A stretch of DNA of 31,962 nucleotides, taken from positions 1 through 31,962 of the IMG/VR virus record IMGVR_UViG_3300044568_000352; one strand, given 5' to 3'. This DNA comes from a virus. Both the position numbers and the translations under genes were made by a program. Positions 3,421-31,962 of the stretch are shown piece by piece. Position 1 is the first letter of the stretch. Each line of letters starts with the position of its first letter. A model generated the notes under the pieces. That model worked only from the letters and a program-made list of their open reading frames with translations, did no database searches and was not told the DNA's origin.

Positions 3421-4533
3421 TTACACTAGGGTATAGCATCCACAAGTTCTTGATCTTCCTCGGTTCCAAATATATCCACTTGGACCGGTTCTTGTATTTG
3501 TCCAAGAATCTGTTGATCGATTGTATCTGTAAATTTGATATGGTGCCGGATCACCACCGGTTGAACTACCCGCAACATAGATATTATCTGTAATTGGATC
3601 ATGAACAACACCGCCCTCGCCGCCAGTTGAAAACGTCTGAGTAGTTCCTCCGTTATTTTTAGCGGAGTGTCTCCATGGCGAATTATTGTAAGCAGTTTGA
3701 TTTGTAATAGAAACAAGTCCTTGTCCGTATACGGACGAACTAAAATTTGTACCGCCAGTTGATGATGGCCAATCAACATACGCCATCAAGCCACCATACA
3801 TACTACCCATACTACCGTTTCTGGAATAAATTGCGGTTCCAGTTGTTAAACTATTAGTGTTGTGATCATAAAACCATGCTCCACCATTAGTAATCACACC
3901 AGCGCCAATTGCAGAATCATTTCTTGGAGATACCATCATTGATCCATTCAGTCCAGTTCCCATAGATGCAATGTGTGTATAATTTCCGTTTTCAAACTTT
4001 CCAAATGCGGATTGACTATACCCTGTTGCAAAGATATATTTTCCTGCTTGAGCCAGAGATTCTTCTTCCCATGTTGAAGGATATGTATATGCGGTTTGAA
4101 CACTTCCACCCTCAGTTACTACTCGTAGGTAACCAGGATTTCCTGATCCACCACCTGCCATCCATCCAAAATATCCATCATGAGCCCAAGCAGAGCCATA
4201 GTTATAGCCTTCCATACCGGGTCCGCTCCAAGTAAAATAACTTGCGGTCCCAAATGATTTATTATTCGCATCCCATTGCCATTTATATGCGTTAGTTTGA
4301 TTACTTTGAAACAGTCTAACAGTAAAATTGACATGATCGAATGCGAAAGAACTACCAAAACCGCTAGGTGCACCGCTTAAAGTTTGGTCGTTTCCTGCAA
4401 TTGTAGTATCTGCACTAATATATAAGTGGCTTCCACTGGAGCGGCCGCCTGACCACGTGAACCATCCTACTGGCGGCTGATCAAGGGCCGCAGCCCCACC
4501 TTTACCTGCTAAAAATGTATGAGGTATGCTCAT
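3421..4533 (-). CDS. Propeller-like virion protein, probable fibre tip or adhesin
   Basis: This 370-aa protein is not assigned to a named family here. It is rich in Gly, Ser, Thr, Asn, Trp and Tyr, with short repeated hydrophobic/Gly blocks such as AYVDWPSSTGG, GVVHDPITDNIYVAGSS and PYQIYRYNRSTDSW (near the C-terminus). These resemble blades of a Kelch-type or similar beta-propeller; that is inference from pattern only. It has no signal peptide or membrane segment. It ends RSRTCGCYTLV, with two Cys close to the C-terminus. It lies directly after the fibre-like 632-aa gene (25-base gap, ribosome site AAGGAAA) and ends at a terminator, so it is likely a distal tail component, perhaps involved in receptor binding. 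Confidence 0.6.
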   Translation of the reverse strand: MSIPHTFLAGKGGAAALDQPPVGWFTWSGGRSSGSHLYISADTTIAGNDQTLSGAPSGFGSSFAFDHVNFTVRLFQSNQTNAYKWQWDANNKSFGTASYFTWSGPGMEGYNYGSAWAHDGYFGWMAGGGSGNPGYLRVVTEGGSVQTAYTYPSTWEEESLAQAGKYIFATGYSQSAFGKFENGNYTHIASMGTGLNGSMMVSPRNDSAIGAGVITNGGAWFYDHNTNSLTTGTAIYSRNGSMGSMYGGLMAYVDWPSSTGGTNFSSSVYGQGLVSITNQTAYNNSPWRHSAKNNGGTTQTFSTGGEGGVVHDPITDNIYVAGSSTGGDPAPYQIYRYNRSTDSWTNTRTGPSGYIWNRGRSRTCGCYTLV

Positions 4534-21278: not shown

Positions 21279-21512
21279 TTATCCTCTGTGCTTGAAATAC
21301 TGTATGCGTTTTTCTTGTTTAGCAATCCATTCATCTGAAGGTTTGCCTTCACCGTCATAGTATGCAAGCGGTCTTCCTGTATTCTTTGATACTAGCGCCC
21401 ACTTACCATCAACTTGCTTTAATACCTCAAGCAATTCTGGTCCGAACATATCTTCTTCCCACTCTTCTTGTGAGACTGTGGTGCCTTGAATAAAATCTTT
21501 AAAACGTTTCAT
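21279..21512 (-). CDS. Conserved small protein with a KWALVS...YFKH domain
   Basis: This is a 77-aa protein of unknown function. The N-terminus, MKRFKDFIQG, resembles the short leader-like starts of many T4-like phage proteins. Residues 37-75 contain KWALVSKNTGRPLAYYDGEG and a basic WIAKQEKRIQYFKHRG end, a compact motif that I have a weak impression of as recurring in marine myovirus genomes. No catalytic motif is evident. Its ATG overlaps the stop of the kinase gene as ATGA (21509-21512), and gp5 follows after three bases. The coupling suggests it is made together with the kinase. Confidence 0.6.
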   Translation of the reverse strand: MKRFKDFIQGTTVSQEEWEEDMFGPELLEVLKQVDGKWALVSKNTGRPLAYYDGEGKPSDEWIAKQEKRIQYFKHRG

Positions 21513-22465
21513 AGGTTGTCTAGTTCTGAAGTGTCTAACGAATCTGGTGGTGTGTTATCACGAATCCAAGTTAGCAATTGCTTCTTAAGTTCAATTTCTT
21601 TCTTTGCTGGCTTTCCTGGCTCTTTCATCACAAGATACTTAAAGTCTTTAATGACAGGGTTGCCTCTTTTGTCTCTGTATGGCTTTGATGTTTTTGGATC
21701 AACAATCAAAATAGTATTTTCTGGATTGTTTAGAATTACATAGATACCACCATTTACATCTGCTGGCAAACCAGTATTGATTAAACTGTAAACTGTTTCG
21801 GCTGCACCTTTGTGTGTTGCAAGTAAAATGTCTTCTGGCACAACTCTGCTACGTGACTTGTTATTCTTAATTGCAATCTGATAGTTTGTCAACACCCAAG
21901 TCAAATGAATGTTCTTTGGTTCGTATCCTGCTTTGAGTAGAAGCGGCAATACTTTTTCCATATCTTCTACGTCTTTGAATGTGCTGTCAAATAGAATGTT
22001 AGGCAACTGTCCTTTTTCTGCGCCAGCAAGCATTAACTCCAGCGTCTTATCTTTAGCGCCAGTAGCGCGAACAAGAACGTGCAGAATGTAAACATGCGTT
22101 GGCGTCTTCAGATTTAACTCAGACATTTTAAGTCCTTTGTCAAGAACTTCTTTTTGAATTAAGTCTCTATCTCTTTGCGAAATCTTGTCGCCGTATTTGT
22201 CTAGCAAATCTTTTGTGCTAAACTTACCAAGATCATCTAATTTCTGAAATGCAATTTTCAATTCATCAACGTCACGAATTTTGAATTCTTCACCTTGCAT
22301 AAAATGCTTAATAGCAAAACCTTTACCAGAACCTGCACCGCCTGCTAAGAATACAATTTGTCCATAACGTGCGCCGTTATTGTAAAGAATTTGTTTCTCT
22401 ACAAGTTCCATTGCACGATAATCTTTCATCGTAGCAAATTCTGAAAATGAAATTGGTATTGACAT
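21509..22465 (-). CDS. P-loop kinase of zeta/AAA_33 type
   Basis: This 318-aa protein has a clear Walker A, GGAGSGKG (residues 42-49, Lys48), after a hydrophobic strand IVFLA. Further on are PNILFDSTFKDVEDMEKVLP, which fits the second strand and Asp of polynucleotide or zeta-type kinases, and a basic NNKSRSRVVPEDILLATHKG segment similar to the Arg-containing lid of that group. The fold class is well supported; the substrate is unknown. Candidates are a nucleotide, a sugar nucleotide, a nucleic acid end or a protein. It sits in the middle of the baseplate operon, 11 bases after the hub gene, and overlaps the 77-aa gene. A role in virion assembly or in host modification late in infection would both fit. 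Confidence 0.75.
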   Translation of the reverse strand: MSIPISFSEFATMKDYRAMELVEKQILYNNGARYGQIVFLAGGAGSGKGFAIKHFMQGEEFKIRDVDELKIAFQKLDDLGKFSTKDLLDKYGDKISQRDRDLIQKEVLDKGLKMSELNLKTPTHVYILHVLVRATGAKDKTLELMLAGAEKGQLPNILFDSTFKDVEDMEKVLPLLLKAGYEPKNIHLTWVLTNYQIAIKNNKSRSRVVPEDILLATHKGAAETVYSLINTGLPADVNGGIYVILNNPENTILIVDPKTSKPYRDKRGNPVIKDFKYLVMKEPGKPAKKEIELKKQLLTWIRDNTPPDSLDTSELDNL

Positions 22466-26675: not shown

Positions 26676-27269
26676 ATGTCTAACATCGCAAAATTATCGG
26701 AATTTAAAAGTTCAATCGCAAAAATTGTAAGACCAAATCTCTTCTATGCAGAATTGAATGGTACGGATAGTCTGTTAATCAATGCAAATCAAGCAATCCC
26801 TCAGATTAAGGATACGTTTTCTTTTCGATGCGAACAAGCAGAGTTTCCTGGAAGAACAATCACCACAGCAGATGATGTAGGTGGTGGTGGACCTGCACTT
26901 AAGTTGCCCTATGATGTAACATATAACGATATCAATCTTTCTATCATTTGCGCTGAAGATATGATTGAAAGAATTTTCTTTGAGTTGTGGATGGAAAGTA
27001 TTGTCGCAACACCTCAATCGAAAACTTCTGGAAATGCAGGATTGATTGCATATCATCAAGATTATGCAAGAAAAACTTCACTCACAATTCGTCAACTAAA
27101 TCCGCAAGGCGAAGTGATATTTTTCTATACACTACATGACATTTTTCCAATCGCATTAACTGCTATGAATGCAACATGGGAAGAAGGAAACACTTATCAG
27201 AGATTCGGAGTAACTTTGAATTATAGATATTATACCTTCGGAAACGAAGACATTACAGAACCAAGATGA
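26676..27269 (+). CDS. Tail-tube-fold protein (gp54/gp19-like)
   Basis: This 197-aa protein begins directly after the previous stop (TAAATG), with AGGA ten bases upstream. It follows the tail-tube pattern: FSFRCEQAEFPGRTITTADD (about 48-67), LKLPYDVTYNDINLSII with a conserved K/L-x-P-Y-D-x-T-Y-x-D strand pair, FFELWMESIV, AYHQDYARKTSLTIRQL and a C-terminal LHDIFPIALTAMNATWEEGN followed by TYQRFGVTLNYRYY. Tube proteins gp19 (163 aa) and the tube initiators gp48 and gp54 share this fold. Since gp48 is across the divergent promoter and gp19 usually lies near gp18 elsewhere, a gp54-like initiator role is my preference, not proven. Confidence 0.6.
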   Translation: MSNIAKLSEFKSSIAKIVRPNLFYAELNGTDSLLINANQAIPQIKDTFSFRCEQAEFPGRTITTADDVGGGGPALKLPYDVTYNDINLSIICAEDMIERIFFELWMESIVATPQSKTSGNAGLIAYHQDYARKTSLTIRQLNPQGEVIFFYTLHDIFPIALTAMNATWEEGNTYQRFGVTLNYRYYTFGNEDITEPR

Positions 27270-27290: not shown

Positions 27291-28034
27291 ATGGCACTAC
27301 CTAAAATTGATGTACCTTTATTTGAGTTGATGTTACCGTCTACAGGTCAACCAGTAAAATACAGACCGTTCTTAGTTAAAGAACAAAAAATTCTTTTGCT
27401 TGCGCTTGAAGGCGAAAGCATTAAAGAGACAGTAATCGCAATGAGACAGATTGTTTCGAATTGCGTATTGAGTGAAGATGTTGATGTTGAAAAACTACCA
27501 ACATTTGATCTTGAATACATTTTCTTGAAACTTCGCGCAAAATCAATCGGCGAACTTGTTGAATTAAACATGAGACACTCAACTGGCATGAACAGTAAAG
27601 GTGAAGAATGTGATGCAATAACAATGCATAAAGTTAACCTGATGGACGTTGAAGTTGTCAAGACAATTGAACACGAAGACAAATTCATTTTAGATGAGAA
27701 GTCTGGACTTGGAATTAAATTCAAATACCCAACTCCTGATCTTGATGCGTTTGATAATAGTGAAGATAGAAGTCAACTTGATATTGCCGCAGACGCAATG
27801 TTTGCTTCAATTGAATATATTTTCGACAACGAAAACGTATACAAAAAAGAAGATTACACAAAGCAAGAACTTCAAGAGTTCATTGATTCAATGACGCAAG
27901 ATCAATTTGCAAAGTGTGGTAAATTTTTCGAGACTATGCCAAAACTAAAGCATACTGTTAAATGGAAATGTTCTAAGTGTGGATGCGATGATGAAATCAC
28001 ACTGGAGGGTTTGACAAGTTTTTTCGTATTCTAA
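27291..28034 (+). CDS. 26: Baseplate/tail assembly protein gp26
   Basis: This 247-aa protein fits the T4 base plate protein family of gp26 (T4: 208 aa): KIDVPLFELMLPSTGQPVKY (residues 5-24), RPFLVKEQKILLLALE (25-40) and FDLEYIFLKLRAKSIGELVE. The C-terminal region has Cys209, Cys227, Cys230 and Cys232, with a CSKCGC knot that could bind zinc. GGAG lies ten bases before the ATG. The last codons contain a slippery heptamer, and a -1 shift would replace the final two residues with 67 others. The next gene is the tape measure, so this protein may act as a tail-assembly chaperone. T4 gp26 is described as a hub subunit. Confidence 0.82.
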   Translation: MALPKIDVPLFELMLPSTGQPVKYRPFLVKEQKILLLALEGESIKETVIAMRQIVSNCVLSEDVDVEKLPTFDLEYIFLKLRAKSIGELVELNMRHSTGMNSKGEECDAITMHKVNLMDVEVVKTIEHEDKFILDEKSGLGIKFKYPTPDLDAFDNSEDRSQLDIAADAMFASIEYIFDNENVYKKEDYTKQELQEFIDSMTQDQFAKCGKFFETMPKLKHTVKWKCSKCGCDDEITLEGLTSFFVF

Positions 28035-28228
28035 TCGGACAGGAGAGTCTTAAAAACTTTTACCAGACAAACTTCGCATTGGTACAGCATCATAAATATA
28101 GCCTGACTGATATTGAAAATATGATGCCATTTGAACGTGAAATCTACCTTATGATGCTTTCTCAGCATGTGACTGAAGAAAACCAAAGATTACAAGAACA
28201 ACAAGCGGCACAAGGTAGGAAACGATAA
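27995..28228 (+). CDS. -1 frame extension of gp26 (frameshift-dependent)
   Basis: The -1 frame opens at 27995, after a TGA at 27992-27994, and closes with TAA at 28226-28228. A shift at 28019-28025 would join gp26 residues 1-245 to 67 residues starting RILIGQESLKNFYQTNF, continuing HHKYSLTDIENMMPFEREIY and ending in a charged QEQQAAQGRKR tail. The sequence is ordinary, structured-looking coding sequence, yet the first ATG in this frame comes only about 35 codons before the end, too late to express most of it. The fusion would be about 312 aa. This matches chaperone/extended chaperone pairs before tape-measure genes in other tailed phages. A simple late start at TTG (LVQHHK) is the alternative. 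Confidence 0.7.
   Translation, partial: NHTGGFDKFFRILIGQESLKNFYQTNFALVQHHKYSLTDIENMMPFEREIYLMMLSQHVTEENQRLQEQQAAQGRKR
28004..28025 (+). other. Programmed -1 frameshift site in gp26
   Basis: The heptamer T_TTT_TTC (28019-28025) is in the correct X_XXY_YYZ register relative to the gp26 frame. It is preceded by GGAGGG (28004-28009), nine bases upstream, an internal anti-rRNA site spaced as in dnaX-type frameshift signals. The zero-frame stop follows at 28032-28034. No strong downstream hairpin was seen by eye, only a weak GTCT/AGAC pairing. Confidence 0.7.
28091..28098 (+). promoter_or_regulatory. Possible variant late promoter before the tape-measure gene
   Basis: The plus strand reads CATAAATA, the same one-base variant as at the gp48 operon, 157 bases before the tape-measure ATG and inside the gp26 extension. 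It could give extra transcription of the tape-measure gene, but a chance match in A/T-rich coding sequence is quite possible. Confidence 0.25.
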
Positions 28229-28255: not shown

Positions 28256-31200
28256 ATGGCTCAACTAGGAAGTTACGCACAAGCACTCGGAGACATTGCA
28301 AAAAGTAGTGCGATGAGTGGTTTAGAAGGATTAGCGAAAGGCATGAAATACGCGGCTATGCGTGAAATGCCTGCGCTAGTCCATGGTGTCGCTTTTGCTA
28401 AAGAGATGCGTGGACGTGCCGGAAAAATTGAAGAAGTAAAGTCTAAAGAAGTTGGTAAGAGACAAGCGGCGGCAACAGAAAATCTTGTTCGACAACAAGC
28501 AACAAACAATGTAATTAGTCTTGATATGGCACGCCAGTTACGTGCTATCAATGCGAATGTTCAGTCGCAAAGACAAATGATGGGTCAGCAGGTTCAAGCC
28601 GCAAAAAGAACTGAGCAATTTGCAGAAGAAGACGCAAGAGAAAAAGCAGACTTCAATCGAAAACTTCTTCGCGCACTTGAGAAAATGGGTGGTGGTGCTG
28701 GAGGTTCAGGATCACCCGCAACCGGTGCCAATGCTTCTGGCGGAGGCATTTTTGATTCTATTCTAGGAGCAATCGGAGGAAATCTAGGAGAAATTTTAGG
28801 TGGAGCCTTGGGTGGTTATGGCGCGTATAAAGGAATTAAGTCATTAAGAACCGGCGGGGTTGTTGCTGGTGGTGGACGCGGAGGTCGTGGTGGTGGTCCT
28901 CGCAGACCAACATATCGCGATCCGAAAACAGGTCGATTTGCTAGAAGACCGGGACTCTTTAGAAGAGGTTTGGGTGCATTGGGAGGATTGGGTCGCGGAC
29001 TCGTAATGAATCCTCTTACTAAAATTCCTGGATGGGGTTGGGCAGGCACAGCACTTGGCGCAGGCCTTATGTTTGCGCCAGATATCTATGACTTCTTTGC
29101 TGGTCCTCCTGGTGGTGATTTAGATGTAACTTCACAAGACAGACAAAGAGCATTATCCCGTTCATTCTTAACTAGATTCTTGTCTGGTGGAGATGAACGT
29201 AGAGCAAGAATTGAAGCGGCAACAAGACTTAGAAGAGCAAGATATCAAAGACCAACTCCTTACGCGCAAGGTAGATATGGCTTAGAAAATCGTGCAGGAA
29301 GAACCGGAGCAAGACAATCAAATCCTGGCGGACCTGGATCATCTCCAGCAATTACCCCAAATACAGTACCTCCTCCTGCTAATTTGCCATCTGGCGCAAG
29401 TCAGAATATTAATGATTTAATTATTCAAGTAGAATCTGGAGGTCGCACTAATGCTGCCGCAACTACAAGTAGAGCGTATGGGTTAGGACAATTTGTTCCT
29501 AGAACATTTAACGGACTTGTAGCGCAAGCCAAACCTGGTGATGCCCTTTATGGAAAAACTTTTGATGATTATAAAGCAAGTCCTGCACTTCAACGTGCGG
29601 CGATGGCTAAACTAACAGAAACAAACGTTAGAACATTACAATCAAGACAAATTCCAATTGATGATGTTTCAATTTACTTAGCACACTTTTTAGGTGCTGG
29701 TGGTGCTACAAGAGTTTTAAGGGCACCTGATACTGCATTGCTTACAGACGTTGTTGCTAAAGATCAAAGAGATGCAAATCCGGCAGTATTTTCTAAAGTA
29801 AAAACTGTTGCAGATTTAAAAGCATGGGCAAGAAGAAAAATTGACCAAGCCAAAAGAGAGTTAGGCACTTCAAGTGGACGTGCCGCAGCCGCATCGACAC
29901 CTTCAAGTCCGGTTGAAGGCTCTGACTATAATGCACAACTACAACTCACTCAGCAGTTGGGTGCGGCATTCGCTAGAGCATCGAATGATCCAAACACAAG
30001 TCCTTTAGCAAGAGAAAACATTAAAACTTCGTATGAAGCGGCCGCCGCCAAACTTGCAACAATGCAACGCGAGCCTCCCGCACAATTACCTTCAGTTACG
30101 GTAACAGGACGAAGAGTTAACAGACCAGGAATTAATGTTCCTGATGCACCAGTAAGAACTGGCAATCGCGCAGTTGATGCGTTCTTAGCACAAAGATCAG
30201 TCACTACAGCAAACGCACCAGCGACAAGAGGAATTTCTGTAGCATCAACAAGCGGCACATCTGTTACTACAGCAAACGCACCTCTTCCTGTTGTTGACGA
30301 AGAAGCAAATCAAAGACTTGCCAAGATTGAAAAATCTCAAGGTAAGGTAGAAAAAGAAACAAAAGGACTTTCTGTAAGTTCTAGACTAGCCGCACGTAAC
30401 TTCTTACGTAGAGAGCGTCCTACAAGACGAATTCTATCTCCAGAAGAAGAGGCAGATCAATATCTAAAGAAAGCACAGCAAGGTTTCTTAAATGCATTTG
30501 ACAGAACACTCACAAAAGCATTTAAAGACTTTGGCACAAACTTCTTAAAGTCGGTTGGCTATGCACCAGGCGGCACACCTGTATCTGCACAAGAAGCAAT
30601 GCGAGTTGGTTACGCAGGTAATCAATTAGGTAGAATGCTTGACCTTGATAAGAAGGTCGCAAAAGGACTTGAAAAGATCATAGGTAAAGAATATGGTCGT
30701 ATGCTTGCGCCAGCAGTATCTCAGTTGGGTAAAGCATATCTCAACAGCATGGCAGTTGGAATTGGACAAAGCCTGTTCACTGGTGTTAGTGGGCGCGATG
30801 CAAAATCTGCGAATGCAATTACTGGACAGATTCTAGGTAATCTAGCAAAAGGCAATAAACAAATTGCAATGGAGCAATTGCTTTATGGTTTAACAGGCAT
30901 TGCGTCTGGACCAGAAACAATTGCACAATCATACGGATTTAGATCGGCAGCCGAAGGCATTGGCTACATGGCTGAAGTCTTTGCGGCAAGATCAACTGAT
31001 GCCGTAAGAGGAATATTTGGTTGGGAAGATAGAACAGCGCCTCAGCAAATGAGAGACCCGGTAACGGGTAGATTGTTCACTCCAGACCAAGCCGGTACCG
31101 ATCAGTCAATGCGTAATATTGCGGCTGGTGGTTATGGTGGTATCTATAGAAGAGAAGCGGCACAAACACTTAGAACTTCTCAGATGACAACAATGGTTGG

Positions 31201-31962
31201 TAAGTCAAATAACTTACTGACTGAAGGCGCACAAACTCTCAATGGAGTTCTGCTAGTATCAGTTGTCAACGCAGGTGAGTTTGCGTCAGATGATGAGAAG
31301 TTTAAATCGCAAATGTTAAGTGGATTGACAGGCTTTGCGACAAGAGGCATTGATAGTGCAATGGGTGGTCCGTTTGGTGCGGCTCCTAGTTATGGAATGA
31401 GAACGCCTGACTTTAATCCTGCGGTACAAAGTAGATATTCTATTGCACAAGGAACACCGGATCTATCTCTAACATCAACAAATAGATATGGTCTTGTTGG
31501 TTCGGATGTTGCCTCTGATATTTCTAGCACCTATCAGTTAGGAAAACAAAATTATGATTTAACGGCTTCTGGTCAGCGTATGTCGTTGAATGCAATGAAT
31601 ACAAGCACTCAACAAAACGTATCTATAACTTCACAAGCCGATCAAAACAACCAAGCAGGCATGGAGAATCAGACACAGCAGATTGTTCATGCAATTAATA
31701 CACAGCCTCGCGCAAGCGGAGGCGGAAGCATGGGTGGAAGTTTTGGTGGAGATTTCACATCGTTCCTAGGAAACATGGCTGTTTCTTTTGTTGCGAACAA
31801 ACTTACATCCAAGATTAAGAATCCTTATTTGAGAGCGATTGCAAACTTCGGCATTCAAAGAGGCGCGCAATATATGTTCCCATCGGTTCTAGGCGGACCT
31901 GCCGCTGGTGGGGCTGCCGCTGGTGCAACTGGAGGTTCATTACTGACAGCAATGGGTATTGG
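28256..31962 (+). CDS. Tape-measure-like tail protein with lytic transglycosylase domain (cut by window edge)
   Basis: An open frame of 1235 codons runs to the right edge without a stop. The start ATG has AAGGCAAGG upstream and lies 27 bases after the gp26 extension. Residues about 1-150 are helical, Lys/Arg/Gln-rich and coiled-coil-like. Gly-rich hydrophobic stretches lie at about 165-193 and 260-285. Residues about 386-500 form an SLT-type domain: IIQVESGGRTNAAATTSRAY followed by GLGQFVPRTFNGL, with Glu393 as likely catalytic acid. A helical region, QYLKKAQQGFLNAFDRTLTK (about 735-755), and a long Gly/Ala/Gln-rich C-terminal part follow. Length, composition, position after gp26 and the muralytic insert fit a tape measure (gp29 role), probably injected to open the wall. 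Another large internal tail protein is the alternative. Confidence 0.75.
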   Translation, partial: MAQLGSYAQALGDIAKSSAMSGLEGLAKGMKYAAMREMPALVHGVAFAKEMRGRAGKIEEVKSKEVGKRQAAATENLVRQQATNNVISLDMARQLRAINANVQSQRQMMGQQVQAAKRTEQFAEEDAREKADFNRKLLRALEKMGGGAGGSGSPATGANASGGGIFDSILGAIGGNLGEILGGALGGYGAYKGIKSLRTGGVVAGGGRGGRGGGPRRPTYRDPKTGRFARRPGLFRRGLGALGGLGRGLVMNPLTKIPGWGWAGTALGAGLMFAPDIYDFFAGPPGGDLDVTSQDRQRALSRSFLTRFLSGGDERRARIEAATRLRRARYQRPTPYAQGRYGLENRAGRTGARQSNPGGPGSSPAITPNTVPPPANLPSGASQNINDLIIQVESGGRTNAAATTSRAYGLGQFVPRTFNGLVAQAKPGDALYGKTFDDYKASPALQRAAMAKLTETNVRTLQSRQIPIDDVSIYLAHFLGAGGATRVLRAPDTALLTDVVAKDQRDANPAVFSKVKTVADLKAWARRKIDQAKRELGTSSGRAAAASTPSSPVEGSDYNAQLQLTQQLGAAFARASNDPNTSPLARENIKTSYEAAAAKLATMQREPPAQLPSVTVTGRRVNRPGINVPDAPVRTGNRAVDAFLAQRSVTTANAPATRGISVASTSGTSVTTANAPLPVVDEEANQRLAKIEKSQGKVEKETKGLSVSSRLAARNFLRRERPTRRILSPEEEADQYLKKAQQGFLNAFDRTLTKAFKDFGTNFLKSVGYAPGGTPVSAQEAMRVGYAGNQLGRMLDLDKKVAKGLEKIIGKEYGRMLAPAVSQLGKAYLNSMAVGIGQSLFTGVSGRDAKSANAITGQILGNLAKGNKQIAMEQLLYGLTGIASGPETIAQSYGFRSAAEGIGYMAEVFAARSTDAVRGIFGWEDRTAPQQMRDPVTGRLFTPDQAGTDQSMRNIAAGGYGGIYRREAAQTLRTSQMTTMVGKSNNLLTEGAQTLNGVLLVSVVNAGEFASDDEKFKSQMLSGLTGFATRGIDSAMGGPFGAAPSYGMRTPDFNPAVQSRYSIAQGTPDLSLTSTNRYGLVGSDVASDISSTYQLGKQNYDLTASGQRMSLNAMNTSTQQNVSITSQADQNNQAGMENQTQQIVHAINTQPRASGGGSMGGSFGGDFTSFLGNMAVSFVANKLTSKIKNPYLRAIANFGIQRGAQYMFPSVLGGPAAGGAAAGATGGSLLTAMGI

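Follow-up and report, generated by a model that had tools for sequence, protein, structure and literature searches.

A stretch of viral DNA of 31,962 nucleotides (nt; IMG/VR record IMGVR_UViG_3300044568_000352, positions 1 to 31,962; hereafter the window) carries a homologue of the phage protein gp26 and, overlapping its 3' end in the −1 frame, an open reading frame (ORF) that encodes the C-terminal domain of gp51. Our sequence comparisons make it very likely that the two form one tail assembly chaperone gene, expressed via programmed −1 ribosomal frameshifting at the heptamer T_TTT_TTC. The window belongs to a marine-type T4 relative whose lineage is uncultivated, and no isolates with more than 60% identity to it were found.

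In the proposed mechanism, most ribosomes would terminate at the TAA at 28032 and release gp26 as the short form (TAC-N). A minority of them, probably delayed by pairing between GGAGGG and 16S ribosomal RNA, would shift back by one base on T_TTT_TTC and read on into the gp51 domain, producing a long form (TAC-NC) of 312 amino acids (aa). By analogy with lambda G/GT, both forms would cover the tape-measure protein and bring in subunits of the tail tube or hub.

The zero-frame codons across the site are AGT TTT TTC GTA TTC TAA, and T_TTT_TTC therefore lies in exact X_XXY_YYZ register. A preliminary description of this DNA had given an overlap of 40 nt between the gp26 frame and the −1 frame, the heptamer at 28019-28025, GGAGGG nine nt upstream, an extension of 67 residues and a fusion of about 312 aa; all of these are correct, the fusion consisting of 245 + 67 residues.

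The −1 frame encodes the C-terminal domain of gp51

The zero-frame protein is gp26, as identified by its Pfam and PHROGs matches (Table 1). The ORF behind it had been described as start-less, and it indeed has no early start in the window: counted from the heptamer, its first ATG is codon 35 of 69, which bears out the earlier statement that most of it cannot be made from ATG. However, it is not anonymous, since it matches the C-terminal domain of the "hub assembly catalyst" gp51 (phrog_634). T4-type gp51 is a second gp26-like domain fused in frame to this extension, a structure confirmed with Pfam and PHROGs in three T4-type phages, and multiple alignment showed that gp26 ends at the exact point where gp51 continues. 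Profile comparison (hhalign) gave 97.7% for the extension against the gp51 C-terminus, and 95.4% and 99.0% for marine gp26 against the gp51 N-terminus and T4-type gp26, respectively. Thus, a short and a long form share an N-terminal domain in both arrangements: here they would arise by frameshifting, and in T4-type phages gp26 is the domain alone and gp51 the domain plus extension.

Hidden Markov model matches also place the −1 extensions of Aeh1, ACP17, and Agrobacterium, Caulobacter and Vibrio phages in the gp51 family. The Aeh1 extension, in the −1 frame behind gp26 (L084:2178-2387), is unannotated (phrog_634 E=9e-15). Sullivan et al. (2010) noted a gp51 of about 20% of the usual length in cyanophages and none in Aeh1 (PMC3037559); both observations are explained if gp51 is encoded in these phages as a −1 extension behind gp26. 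In many cyanophage records, gp51 is given as a gene of its own, often from a doubtful start.

Across 32 diverse relatives, the extension aligns gap-free between FFR and HKYS, and nine of its residues are invariant. Its structure model is of low confidence (predicted local distance difference test, pLDDT, 70), and a fold search with this model gave no meaningful match.

Conservation and codon usage at the slippery heptamer

Across the genes of the window, 38 of 9,988 codon positions carry an in-register X_XXY_YYZ heptamer of any kind, and the chance of at least one within the 13-codon overlap is about 5%. The window heptamer by itself is therefore little proof, and the −1 frame could be an accidental overlap, a decayed or unexpressed gp51 remnant. 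We regard this as highly improbable, because the extension is conserved as a protein from FFR to its C-terminus and belongs to a family that is essential in T4 (PMC3004832). The case goes far beyond chance because the heptamer is conserved among relatives. A second in-register heptamer within the same overlap, G_GGT_TTG at 28007, was rejected as the slip site since it is not conserved.

Relatives were drawn from IMG/VR loci and annotated phages; IMG/VR scans that used Vibrio XZ1, Cr30, T4-type gp26 or K452 as the query yielded few loci or none. In-register T_TTT_TTY together with a −1 gp51 extension was found in 95 of 97 gp26 genes below 95% identity, 55 of 57 below 80%, 39 of 41 below 70% and 23 of 25 below 60%. 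The groups with both features comprise Kyanoviridae, schizo-T-even Straboviridae, and Agrobacterium, Acidovorax and Caulobacter phages. The heptamer is present in the cyanophages S-PM2, Bellamy and Syn1, Pelagibacter phages Mosig and HTVC008M, Methylophilales phage Melnitz-3, and phage S-CREM2, as well as in Aeromonas Aeh1, Vibrio XZ1 and K566, Acidovorax ACP17, Caulobacter Cr30, and Agrobacterium Atu_ph04 and OLIVR5; it also occurs in Desulfovibrio phage 7757. With a single exception among 95 relatives, the zero-frame stop lies 0-2 codons past the heptamer. The gene order is tail tube, gp26/−1 gene, large tail protein.

T4-type gp26 provides a natural control. In six distinct proteins without a downstream extension (L186-L189, near copies or relatives of these, are outside the six), the heptamer is absent throughout, and four of them keep the Phe-Phe pair, encoded by TTC TTT or TTC TTC.

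Codon choice at the site is strongly constrained. Below 80% identity (n=55), T is without exception the last base of the codon that precedes the Phe pair of the heptamer (log10P −12.5), TTT invariably encodes the first Phe (log10P −11.7) and TTC encodes the second in 51 of 55 (P=6e-17), with corresponding log10P values of −8.5 for the preceding codon and −8.7 for the first Phe below 70% identity (n=39); all these probabilities are optimistic because lineages were treated as independent. Phe-Phe pairs elsewhere in the same gp26 genes are mostly TTC TTT. Moreover, in the window clade as well as in the cyanophage clade, synonymous conservation along gp26 is highest at the heptamer. The programmed −1 frameshift put forward in the preliminary description is thus supported by the conservation of heptamer and extension and by synonymous constraint.

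Likely stimulatory elements and alternative readings

In most relatives, a GGAGG or GAGGG 5-mer is found upstream, its end 9-10 nt away from the heptamer. The Glu codon within this element is GAG in 32 of 44 relatives versus 28% elsewhere in gp26 (P=7e-10, likewise optimistic). The preliminary description had suggested looking in homologues for joint conservation of the heptamer, the purine-rich site and the −1 ORF, and this was found across very divergent phages. Downstream, RNA stability across the family is unusually high at 12-62 nt, counted from the start of the heptamer (mean z −2.18, 49% below −2), compared with mean z values between −0.5 and +0.2 at ten other tested gene positions. The hairpins vary between lineages and show little covariation, with one compensatory pair in each of two hairpin groups, so that their support comes from energy and not from covariation. 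Compensation was looked for as well, but the strength of the Shine-Dalgarno (SD)-like site is uncorrelated with the downstream structure (Spearman 0.02). In S-PM2-like cyanophages (L081:3712-3771, L124:1880-1939), long AU-rich hairpins of up to about 16 bp lie directly 3' of the slip site, inside the MFYN..NYY coding sequence.

These features also bear on slippage of RNA polymerase on the T6 run, which would make an mRNA one base shorter and yield the fusion by ordinary translation. The site is indeed a run of 6-7 T, but the run is six T followed by C in 51 of 55 relatives and never exceeds seven. Moreover, polymerase slippage needs neither codon register, nor an upstream SD-like site, nor downstream RNA structure at ribosomal spacing, all of which are kept. 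We therefore consider polymerase slippage very unlikely. That slippage occurs, and that it is ribosomal, is inferred from the sequence comparisons.

Alternatively, gp51 could be a separate small protein begun by translational coupling or reinitiation where gp26 stops or close by (at TGATG/TAATG or another ATG in the vicinity), with no fusion made. An ATG does lie within the first nine extension codons in 49 of 93 relatives, often overlapping the gp26 stop, and public records give gp51 its own ORF, e.g. in S-PM2 (3720-3893), K566 and XZ1. However, an SD-like site precedes the early ATG in 0 of 49; 44 of 93 relatives have no early ATG, and 34 of 93, the window included, have no ATG, GTG or TTG among the first nine codons. 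The first of these start codons to occur in the window is codon 21, inside the conserved core. Reinitiation also leaves the invariant heptamer unexplained, and T4-type gp51 fuses both domains. Overall, this explanation appears unlikely, although somewhat less so than polymerase slippage.

Several observations weigh against programmed frameshifting into a chaperone fusion. First, Vibrio K452 and the Ackermannviridae Salmonella phage S118 retain the −1 extension without the heptamer. In K452 (L087:2208-2405), the gp51-like extension follows gp26 with the junction ACG CTT TTT GCG TAA TGATGG, and in S118 (L094:2520-2705) with GAG ATT TTC ATT TAA, neither of which contains T_TTT_TTY. The preliminary description had counted such retention, and homologues in which the extension has its own ATG and ribosome site, as arguments against the frameshift; the former is confined to this small minority, and of the latter only the ATG was seen, near the junction in about half of the relatives, with a ribosome site in none of those. 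Second, the start codon near the junction permits reinitiation in the many relatives that have one. Third, downstream RNA in the window lineage (L001, L003, L004) has z of about 0 and is not unusually stable; this lineage has the SD-like site and not the stable structure. Fourth, the likeness of gp26 to a known chaperone fold is weak: the top PDB fold match of its AlphaFold2 model (pLDDT 88.6) is the HK97 tail assembly chaperone 2ob9 (E=0.46). Finally, we found no experimental demonstration of frameshifting in a T4-like chaperone gene in the literature, where Vladimirov et al. (2022) is represented by the papers citing it.

Locus layout, probable chaperone role and known systems

The gene is flanked by a tail-tube gene and a large tail ORF (Table 1), the location that tail assembly chaperone genes occupy in lambda and P2. 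In relatives L098 and L090 the downstream ORF is annotated or matched as tape measure, and the window's own ORF has a transglycosylase match only; from position and these relatives, it is probably a tape-measure gene. Its transglycosylase-like region also gave a Pfam SLT match below threshold. Elsewhere in the window, a protein with a P-loop-like motif (GGAGSGKG) is encoded on the minus strand at 21509-22465, amid the baseplate gene cluster.

Table 1. Features of the gp26/gp51 locus in the window
Feature	Position	Strand	Description	Evidence
gp26 homologue, zero frame	27291..28034	+	247 aa; short chaperone form (TAC-N)	PF12322 E=2.5e-59; phrog_150 E=5.6e-61; AlphaFold2 pLDDT 88.6
Zero-frame stop TAA	28032..28034	+	2 codons past heptamer	sequence
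−1 open frame	27995..28228	+	77 codons, stop 28226-28228	sequence
gp51-type C-terminal extension (TAC-C)	28025-28225	+	67 aa, part of −1 frame	phrog_634 E=5.4e-29
GGAGGG SD-like element	28004..28009	+	9 nt 5' of slip site; likely frameshift stimulator	sequence
T_TTT_TTC slippery heptamer	28019..28025	+	in register	sequence, conservation
Putative frameshift fusion, long form (TAC-NC)	27291..28228	+	312 aa = 27291-28025, then 28025-28225 in −1	T4-type gp51 domain order matches
Tail-tube family protein	26676..27269	+	directly upstream of gp26	phrog_45 E=8.8e-38; PF23849 E=3e-6
Large downstream ORF	28256..31962	+	truncated by window end; probable tape-measure / tail-associated transglycosylase	phrog_4067 transglycosylase E=2.7e-16

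In T4, gp26 and gp51 are counted among the hub assembly chaperones; T4 gp51 is essential, its function is given as unknown, and the particle does not contain it (PMC3004832). The marine pair would correspond to tail assembly chaperones such as lambda G/GT and P2 E/E'. Membership of gp26 in the Pfam TAC families was considered and is unsupported by sequence: PF10109 (Phage_TAC_7) matched below the cut-off (E=0.049), and in 1 of 40 family members. A PDB sequence search with gp26 gave no match.

Atkins et al. (2016) described G-T frameshifting as conserved across long-tailed phages "except T4" (PMC5009743), and the preliminary description was not aware of an established case in T4-like phages. 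That statement is outdated: PMC12846349, citing Vladimirov et al. (2022), refers to poly-T as known −1 frameshift signals in T4-like TAC-N genes, and PMC10885494, citing the same work, reports that in some T4-like phages a short chaperone gene and a longer fusion gene take the place of frameshifting. The source that both cite for T4-like TAC-N/TAC-NC genes is Vladimirov, Gautam and Davidson (2022, Virology 566:9-15). As represented in these citing papers, poly-T frameshifting in T4-like chaperone genes has already been reported, and the window is a further well-supported case. Further support comes from the signals on either side of the heptamer, from the codon test, from the T4-type gp26 control and from the exceptions; some of these may be new.

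Taken together, these phages offer a natural experiment, in which the same two proteins would be made via frameshifting in most sampled T4-like phages, from two genes in T4-type phages and by another route in two lineages. We lean slightly towards a T_TTT_TTY frameshift ancestral to all T4-like phages bearing gp26 and gp51; the separate, divergently transcribed gp26 and gp51 of T4 would then derive from a duplication that fixed both products as genes, with the slip site subsequently lost from gp26. In a tree of the PF12322 domain, T4-type gp26 and gp51 form separate clades, but their long branches meet and the tree leaves the duplication order unresolved.

As in lambda G/GT, the long form would have a C-terminal domain, and the gene lies between the tail-tube and large tail (tape-measure) genes. 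The lambda heptamer is G_GGA_AAG, whereas that of the window is T_TTT_TTC, accompanied by an SD-like stimulator and, in relatives, by downstream structure; no match to lambda-type chaperone families was found by sequence. The P2 E/E' heptamer is T-rich, and P2-like E/E' (Phage_TAC_7) resembles the present case in a −1 frameshift at such a heptamer in a contractile-tailed phage, but the sub-threshold gp26 match gives no sequence membership. A mechanistic parallel is the dnaX signal, which combines an upstream SD-like element, a slippery heptamer and a downstream hairpin. Here the SD-like element is about 10 nt 5' of the heptamer and a hairpin follows in many relatives; unlike dnaX, the gene is another one, the heptamer is U-rich and no hairpin is evident in the window. 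Finally, frameshifting in the window lineage and separate gp26 and gp51 genes in T4-type phages would fit both reports on T4-like TAC-N/TAC-NC genes, as these are conveyed by the papers citing Vladimirov et al. (2022).
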